Positions 47,635-49,936 of a stretch of 53,483 nt of DNA are shown here, one piece after another. How positions within the stretch are numbered: the stretch's first letter is position 1; every line of letters starts with the position of its first letter. This DNA comes from an uncultured Clostridia bacterium. Lineage in GTDB: Bacteria; Bacillota; Clostridia; Christensenellales; UBA1242. A program made the position numbers and the translations under genes. The stretch lies in contig CANQAY010000002.1 of NCBI GenBank assembly GCA_947589025.1, forward strand, positions 74,718 through 128,200, in the 5' to 3' direction. The notes under the pieces were generated by a model. That model searched no databases. It was not told where the DNA came from and saw nothing but the letters and a program-made list of their open reading frames with translations.

Positions 47635-48660
47635 TTAACTGGCGGGCTTTGCCCGTGATTTTTTTATTTTGTTTGCAATTTTATAAATTAATTTAACCAT
47701 TAGGCGGCGCAAAATGTCAACAGCAACACAAATAACAAACACCCCAATTGTTGCAAATATTAAATATAATGGGAAGTAGGCTTTCGCACTCATTTCAGTT
47801 ATATTAAAAATTTGCTGAAACAAAACAATTCTGGCATGCCTATTATCATGGATGAGATAAACACTAAAAGTTGAGGCGGCAACGAAGTTGATAAATTTAG
47901 ATTGAAAATTTAATTTTTCAAAAAACAAAAATAAACATAACGCAGATAAAACAGCCCAAATATCGTTATTGCTTACATTGCCTTTTATTGAATTAAAAGC
48001 ATAAAACACAAAAAATGCCAATAAATAAAGCCATTTGTTAACTTTGTTTTTATCTTTAATTCTTGCAATAAAAGCACCGATAAAATAATAACAAACAAAC
48101 CAATCAAATGTGCTTAAATAAAAGCTATTATTAAATATTAAAGGAAAAACCACACAAAACAAGCCAAACAAAATGCAAGCATAAAAATGTTGTTTTTCGC
48201 TAATATTTTTAATTATTATGTTTAAAAACGGCGCCAGCAAATATATAAGGCAATAAACGGTAACAAACCAATAGCCATCAAATATTAATGGGAAAAACCC
48301 AGCCATTGCCAAATTAAAATTGCCATTTTGCCCACAAATTAAAGACAATAAATATATTGCAGCACCATAAAATGTAACTAATAATATCAATTTTAACAAT
48401 TTTTTAAAACTAAATTTTTTTGCCTTAGAAAGGAAATATCCGGTAATTAAAACATAAATAACAACTCCCGTTTTGCCGGCCGCCATTGCAATGGCACGCA
48501 TAACAGAATCGAAATTAGAATTTGCGGGGGCAAGCCCACCATGATAAACCAAATGAAAAAACACAATCATAAGCATTGCAACAATTCTTAAAAGTTCAAA
48601 ATTAGATTGCCTTATGTTGGTAAAGTGTACCCCCCCCCCAAGCACTTTTTCATTTTTCAT
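47635..48660 (-). CDS. Acyltransferase 3 family protein with N-terminal G tract
   Basis: The 341-residue product has about ten membrane segments and starts its conserved domain with RQSNFELLRIVAMLMIVFFH, the mark of acyltransferase 3 (OafA/WecH-like) proteins that O-acetylate surface sugars. I choose ATG 48660 because AAAGGTG lies five bases upstream; it is 16 bases past the GNAT stop. Codons 6-9 (LGGGV) contain ten G in a row, before the first catalytic residue, so a gain or loss of one G would stop the protein early. The frame is open (ON) in this sequence. Confidence 0.9.
   Translation of the reverse strand: MKNEKVLGGGVHFTNIRQSNFELLRIVAMLMIVFFHLVYHGGLAPANSNFDSVMRAIAMAAGKTGVVIYVLITGYFLSKAKKFSFKKLLKLILLVTFYGAAIYLLSLICGQNGNFNLAMAGFFPLIFDGYWFVTVYCLIYLLAPFLNIIIKNISEKQHFYACILFGLFCVVFPLIFNNSFYLSTFDWFVCYYFIGAFIARIKDKNKVNKWLYLLAFFVFYAFNSIKGNVSNNDIWAVLSALCLFLFFEKLNFQSKFINFVAASTFSVYLIHDNRHARIVLFQQIFNITEMSAKAYFPLYLIFATIGVFVICVAVDILRRLMVKLIYKIANKIKKSRAKPAS
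48630..48639 (-). repeat. Ten-base G tract (slippage site)
   Basis: Ten C on the plus strand, ten G in the coding strand of the acyltransferase, near codon 8. By far the longest G/C run in this AT-rich window. Confidence 0.9.
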
Positions 48661-48676
48661 GTGTTCACCTTTATAT

Positions 48677-49150
48677 CTATTTTTTATTAAATTTTTCCAA
48701 ATAAACTTCACCATATTGGCAAATTAGTTCACCATTTTTGTGCCTGTACCCCATGTGATAATAAAAAGGAACGGCGTTAAGGCTGGACGGACATTCAATT
48801 CGTTTTGCGCGCGTAAAATATTCATCCTGTTCAAGCGCTTCCATAATTGCCCTGCCATAGCCTTTGCCTTGATAGTCTGGGTCTACATAAATTGAAAACA
48901 AATTTGCCTCATTTTTGTTCCCATAATAATCGCCCCCAATTGCCCCGCAAGCACGAATTTTGTCCCTTTCTTTTAACACATAAAAGTGCAAACTTTTTTG
49001 TTTTTGCGCCAATCTTTCAATTGTTTGATGCGAAATGGTATCTTCAATCCATGCAGTGGGATAATAGCCAACAAAAGATTTTTGCATAACTTTTTTAATC
49101 ATTTTTTGAAGTTCAGGTATGTCCTGCTCTTTCAATAATTCTATTTTCAT
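48677..49150 (-). CDS. GNAT-family N-acetyltransferase
   Basis: The 157-residue product has the acetyl-CoA motif NLFSIYVDPDYQGKGYGRAI (Q/RxxGxG/A as QGKGYG) and a C-terminal FYYHMGYRHK, normal for GNAT. The target cannot be told; many small GNATs acetylate a drug, a protein N-terminus or an amine. A clear start ATG 49150 follows AGGAG-like AAAGGAGTAAT. The acyltransferase gene follows 16 bases later, so they form an operon. Confidence 0.9.
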   Translation of the reverse strand: MKIELLKEQDIPELQKMIKKVMQKSFVGYYPTAWIEDTISHQTIERLAQKQKSLHFYVLKERDKIRACGAIGGDYYGNKNEANLFSIYVDPDYQGKGYGRAIMEALEQDEYFTRAKRIECPSSLNAVPFYYHMGYRHKNGELICQYGEVYLEKFNKK

Positions 49151-49196
49151 ATTACTCCTTTAAAATAATATATCAAAAAACATAAAATTTTCAAAC

Positions 49197-49675: not shown

Positions 49676-49936
49676 CTAACCGCGGATGCCCAATTTGGTT
49701 TTAATTGCACGTGCGCGGTTAATATCCACTTTTGTTAAATAATCCAACAATTTTTTGCGTGTGGAAACCATTTTGTTAAGCCCGCGGGTTGAGTGTAAAT
49801 CTTGCTTATTCTTTTTAAGGTGTTCGGTTAAATTTTTAATTCTTTCCGTTAAAAGTGCAATTTGAACTTCAACACTGCCGGTATCGGTTTCATTTTTGCC
49901 GTAGGTTTTAACAATTTCTGCCTTATTAATTTTCAT
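49676..49936 (-). CDS. rpsO: 30S ribosomal protein S15
   Basis: The 86-residue product matches S15: [20 protein letters not shown], then [20 protein letters not shown], which is the rRNA-binding part. It binds the three-way junction of 16S rRNA and is an early assembly protein. AAGGAG precedes ATG 49936. An 80-base leader with two hairpins lies upstream, and the tandem hairpin array follows downstream; pnp, the usual neighbour, is absent. Confidence 0.97.

Follow-up and report, generated by a model that had tools for sequence, protein, structure and literature searches.

Does a run of ten guanines near the start of an acyltransferase-3 (AT3) gene act as a switch that turns the gene on and off? 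The question arises in a 53,483-nucleotide stretch of DNA, hereafter the window, from an uncultured gut bacterium, a relative of Candidatus Onthoplasma (Christensenellales), whose genome measures ~0.96 Mb (962 kb) and is 99% complete. Onthoplasma belongs to the family UBA1242 and has genomes smaller than 1 Mb (PMC12306168). One genome of the same genus, G010, includes contig DVMB01000044.1 of Candidatus Onthoplasma faecigallinarum, which the NCBI taxonomy assigns to Christensenellales. An earlier reading of the letters alone (the sequence-only reading) had proposed that the tract makes the AT3 gene phase-variable.

The AT3 gene occupies positions 47635..48660 on the minus strand and encodes, in the ON frame, a membrane protein of 341 residues (341 codons). 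The protein matches PF01757 (Acyl_transf_3) with E=1.4e-29 and 103.6 bits, the curated cut-off being 31, while an NCBIfam search of the same protein returned no name. The 5′ end of the gene reads ATGAAAAATGAAAAAGTGCTTGGGGGGGGGGTACAC, with AAAGGTG, the likely ribosome-binding site (48666..48672, minus strand), 5 bases before the ATG at 48660. The R-X10-H motif is absolutely conserved in the AT3 family (PMC9833829, which defines the motif), and it is present in the first transmembrane helix as RIVAMLMIVFFH, at residues 25-36 (48553..48588, minus strand). By inspection, the RXXR sequence was not found at the cytoplasmic face of the third transmembrane helix, where the protein carries lysines (KKFSFKKLLK). 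Since RXXR is highly, not absolutely, conserved in AT3 proteins and is no criterion of family membership, its absence makes the activity less certain and leaves the Pfam assignment unaffected. The Pfam search revealed no C-terminal SGNH domain in the 341-residue protein, which thus consists of the AT3 domain alone.

The tract lies exactly where it had been reported, at 48630..48639, as C10 on the plus strand and G10 on the gene strand. Its assignment to codons 6-9 needs correction: counted from the start at 48660, it covers nucleotides 22-31 and codons 8-11 of the gene. It does precede the catalytic domain, as proposed, since both the Acyl_transf_3 match and, after 14 codons, R-X10-H follow it. 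We tested tract lengths from 7 to 13 and found the frame open at 7, 10 and 13 G only, so that the gene is ON here. With G8, G9, G11 or G12 the product ends after 15-19 residues, which bears out the claim that slippage by one base stops translation. A longer alternative reading frame from 48714 is in the same frame and likewise begins upstream of the tract; the choice between the two starts is therefore immaterial. We rejected a start downstream of the tract, the finding that the sequence-only reading had named against itself. No in-frame start was found between the tract and R-X10-H before residue 29, and the next in-frame ATG, codon 29, lies past the motif arginine and inside the first membrane helix.

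Directly upstream of the AT3 gene, the ORF list and the Pfam search place a GNAT-family acetyltransferase gene (48677..49150, minus strand), which is probably co-transcribed with it and is unaffected by the G10 tract. A tentative promoter-like site, TTGAAA-16-TATATT with TG before the second hexamer (49167..49194, minus strand), may serve both genes; this region holds 5 promoter-like sites where 3.5 are expected. Further upstream lies rpsO, encoding ribosomal protein uS15 (49676..49936, minus strand), which in two congeneric species is likewise the neighbour of the AT3 orthologue. An Rfam search around the AT3 gene returned one tRNA near the gene and nothing else.

How unusual is such a tract? 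This genome has few long G runs, as had been claimed: counting them throughout the 962 kb gave 15 of G6, none of G7, 1 of G8 and 5 of at least nine. On the window alone, a first-order Markov null gave a G or C run of at least ten in 12 of 300 simulated windows. The excess over this null is only modest, and the case therefore rests on comparative data, namely the counts across the genus and the recurrence among homologues. Across 34 congeneric genomes, one per species, the summed per-genome counts at exact lengths were 236 for G6, 14 for G7, 27 for G8 and 161 for G9 or longer. This distribution is bimodal, and its rise at G9+ is not the product of a steadily decaying null.

Within the window-bearing genome the long tracts are few, which we counted against a switch, and the idea that each of these five is a switch was rejected. 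Two of them form a G9-TACTACGACAATAA-C9 hairpin (G000:C14; L051 4274-4305) near a Rep_OBD gene on a 5.7-kb contig, likely the double-strand origin of a rolling-circle plasmid. Another, a G9 (G000:C11:6073-6081; L050 2502-2510), abuts a tRNA-Ser gene, forming a T9G9 junction near its 3′ end; junctions of a T run with G9 that resemble it also occur in L085, L127 and L187. Loss of mismatch repair was likewise rejected as the reason why the genus is rich in tracts, mutS being present in 34/34 genomes and mutL in 33/34. The presence of MutS and MutL was itself counted against a switch, as it may hold the slippage rate down.

Searching the genus by protein similarity and with Pfam gave 8 close AT3 homologues, including the window gene, and 13 other AT3 genes. 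A G10-G11 tract was present in 5/8 of the close homologues and in 0/13 of the others (Fisher p=0.003). If the background is taken as 161 tracts among 34 x 900 genes, the binomial probability of this recurrence is 2e-10. The tracts do not share one site: they lie at codons 8-11 in the window gene, at about codon 17 in G007, about 60 in G012, about 106 in G014, and just past the motif histidine in G001, where the tract is 11 bp from a contig end. These are at least four different positions among five genes, which indicates repeated gain and led us to reject a single ancestral tract. In the G012 homologue the tract is G11 and the gene is OFF, its frame breaking at the tract, with one open frame before it and a different one after it. 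In G010 and G020 the AT3 gene adjoins rpsO as in the window, which makes it a positional orthologue, and has no tract; this too was counted against a switch, and it shows that the AT3 protein does not need the tract. In these two orthologues (L009, L010) Asn replaces the His of R-X10-H.

Tract length also differs between paralogues in the same genome. Paralogues with near-identical 66-bp flanks carry G10, G11 or G12, and in several sets nothing else in the region varies as much as the tract. The lengths are 10/11/10 and 10/11/11/11/12/10/11 in two G014 sets and 10/11/11/13 in a G005 set. In G003, three surface-protein paralogues (L162, L163 and L164; the first two of BspA-LRR type) have, at the same site, G9 (OFF), G11 (ON) and G10. 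Together with the G012 homologue, the G003 and G009 paralogues provide both ON and OFF states among relatives.

Coding sequences hold only part of the genus tracts. We retrieved ~140 regions around them and asked of 145 tracts whether they lie in a promoter spacer, flanked by -35 and -10 hexamers that together show no more than two mismatches. This was so for 61/145 (G strand, 53; C strand, 8), compared with 1.6% per orientation at random positions. G14-G28 runs at contig ends of G007 (C1 and C98; L169, L181) are probably sequencing artefacts and were excluded from these statistics. The spacers of the tract-bearing promoters cluster at 18-19 bp, and most of these promoters stand upstream of lipoproteins and BspA-type surface proteins. 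One example comes from the window-bearing genome itself (G000:C1:138591-138600; L049 3001-3010), where TTGACA-aaagtttta-G10-TATAAT has a 19-bp spacer and is followed by AAGGAGG and a 532-residue lipoprotein-like gene; from its sequence, we consider it a putative promoter-type switch. The remaining tracts are partly within coding sequences, some ON and some OFF. The tract-bearing genes encode BspA-type LRR surface proteins, lipoproteins, GT2, GtrII, PMT_2 and bacterial sugar transferases, as well as a capsule synthesis protein and a two-domain HsdS in the OFF state. This HsdS (G026:C3; L168), with its two Methylase_S domains split by G9, is a probable phase-variable specificity subunit of a type I restriction system. 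In a third placement, seen in L122, L126, L128, L155, L157, L166 and L188, the tract ends 1-12 bases upstream of where a surface-protein gene starts, in the region of the ribosome site.

Beyond the genus, the strict pattern TTGACA...G9+...TATAAT occurred in 51/396 Christensenellales genomes and in 2/372 other Clostridia, the latter being the search set minus its 19 Christensenellales (Fisher 3e-13). The reversed pattern, used as a control, was found in none of the 396 Christensenellales genomes. By a simple heuristic rather than a trained predictor, an N-terminal hydrophobic stretch with a lipobox-like site was present in 20/29 ORFs downstream of the loci from the order-wide search, in 16/51 behind the genus promoters and in 0/31 control ORFs from the window. 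The window tract thus looks like one locus of a seemingly genus- and order-wide system.

Three other explanations of the AT3 tract have to be weighed against these data. It could be a chance run, a neutral G10 in a tolerant N-terminal extension with no regulatory role. The simulated windows above leave room for this, and the extension does vary between AT3 homologues; however, chance does not readily give a genus in which G7 and G8 are almost absent while G9+ is common, in which tracts recur at differing positions in AT3 homologues, and in which they concentrate in promoter spacers and surface genes. We therefore regard a chance origin as improbable. The tract could instead make RNA polymerase or ribosomes slip, so that a single genotype would give a fixed mix of complete and truncated product, without a heritable switch. 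Homopolymers can give transcript slippage, and the position near the 5′ end of the gene would suit such a role. Yet the promoter-spacer tracts, the largest class, are untranslated, and homologues and paralogues include OFF genotypes, which makes this explanation slightly less probable still.

An artefact of assembly or sequencing, with a true tract of another length or a poly-G read artefact, is in our view the least probable of the three, although artefacts of this kind do exist in the data. Clear ones (G14, G18 and G28) stand at G007 contig ends, and short-read homopolymer errors are possible for the exact length of the AT3 tract. Moreover, 10 tracts, counted by hand, lie within 60 bp of contig ends where 0.9 are expected, the contig numbers being rounded values; such an excess would also be expected from repeated promoter flanks or from real heterogeneity. 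Against an artefact, the AT3 tract lies 4.8 kb deep in a 128-kb contig, the coding sequence being in frame on both sides of it, and other tracts have exact promoter hexamers at their flanks.

Thus, we consider it very likely that the AT3 G10 tract is a simple-sequence contingency locus, an ON/OFF switch driven by slippage. The homopolymer exceeds background, gain or loss of one unit throws the gene out of frame and cuts its product short, and relatives occur in both ON and OFF states. The original proposal of a phase-variable switch therefore gains support from the early stops, the lack of an in-frame start before R-X10-H, the recurrence of the tract at differing positions and the OFF homologue. 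In our model, the tract would gain or lose a G during replication; at 7, 10 or 13 G the AT3 gene would be in frame and ON, and at the lengths between it would be OFF, its product stopping within 15-19 residues. The population would consequently be a mix of cells with and without a modification of the presumed acyl acceptor, a surface or exported glycan, while the upstream GNAT gene would stay on whatever the state of the tract. We hypothesize that the same principle operates across the genus and the order, where a tract in the -35/-10 spacer of lipoprotein and LRR surface-protein promoters would set promoter strength through its length.

The mechanism has precedents. The Haemophilus influenzae oafA gene is a phase-variable AT3 gene whose product O-acetylates a lipooligosaccharide heptose, and it is switched ON and OFF by slippage of tetranucleotide repeats (PMC9558356). 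The likeness to OafA drawn by the sequence-only reading stands as far as an AT3 gene under repeat slippage is concerned; it fails for the protein, which here is AT3-only and has no SGNH domain, and for the repeat, which in oafA is tetranucleotide rather than poly-G (PMC9558356). The setting differs too, with the lipooligosaccharide of a Gram-negative pathogen on one side and a reduced Clostridia genome on the other.

The best-known cases of poly-G phase variation are those of Gram-negative pathogens. In Neisseria and Campylobacter, poly-G contingency loci lie in the 5′ part of genes for surface glycans and surface proteins. The AT3 tract shares this placement, whereas the phylum is unrelated and Christensenellales also have the large promoter-spacer class. 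The Neisseria meningitidis porA promoter has poly-G between its -35 and -10, a layout shared by the promoter-spacer tracts, such as TTGACA-19-TATAAT with G10 before the lipoprotein-like gene of G000:C1. In contrast to porA, the loci here number dozens and are spread over many species of a single Clostridia order, most of them before lipoproteins and LRR surface proteins. A further parallel is offered by the invertible promoters of the PhaseFinder survey (cited in PMC11868660), through which gut commensals switch surface genes heritably; in our loci, the change is in homopolymer length and involves neither inverted repeats nor a recombinase. For prokaryotes, homopolymeric tracts in coding genes have been surveyed earlier (PMC2831843). 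In the open-licence literature we found no paper on phase variation in Christensenellales, and a wider literature search for poly-G in Clostridia returned nothing relevant. Consequently, with the mechanism already known from oafA and porA, the lineage and the emphasis on lipoprotein promoters appear unreported within the open-licence literature, and it is the lineage and the scale that are surprising.

Taken as a whole, these data make it probable that the Christensenellales, mostly uncultured gut Clostridia, run a poly-G phase-variation repertoire. Its largest class would act through promoter-spacer length before lipoproteins and BspA-type surface proteins, accompanied by frame switches in AT3 genes, glycosyltransferases and at least one HsdS, so that reduced genomes of ~1 Mb would keep a large switchable surface. 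If this is true, the surface state of these uncultured commensals, and perhaps their phage sensitivity and host recognition, would be stochastic. That state would be readable from tract lengths in existing metagenomes, and the surface heterogeneity of these organisms would become testable without culture.
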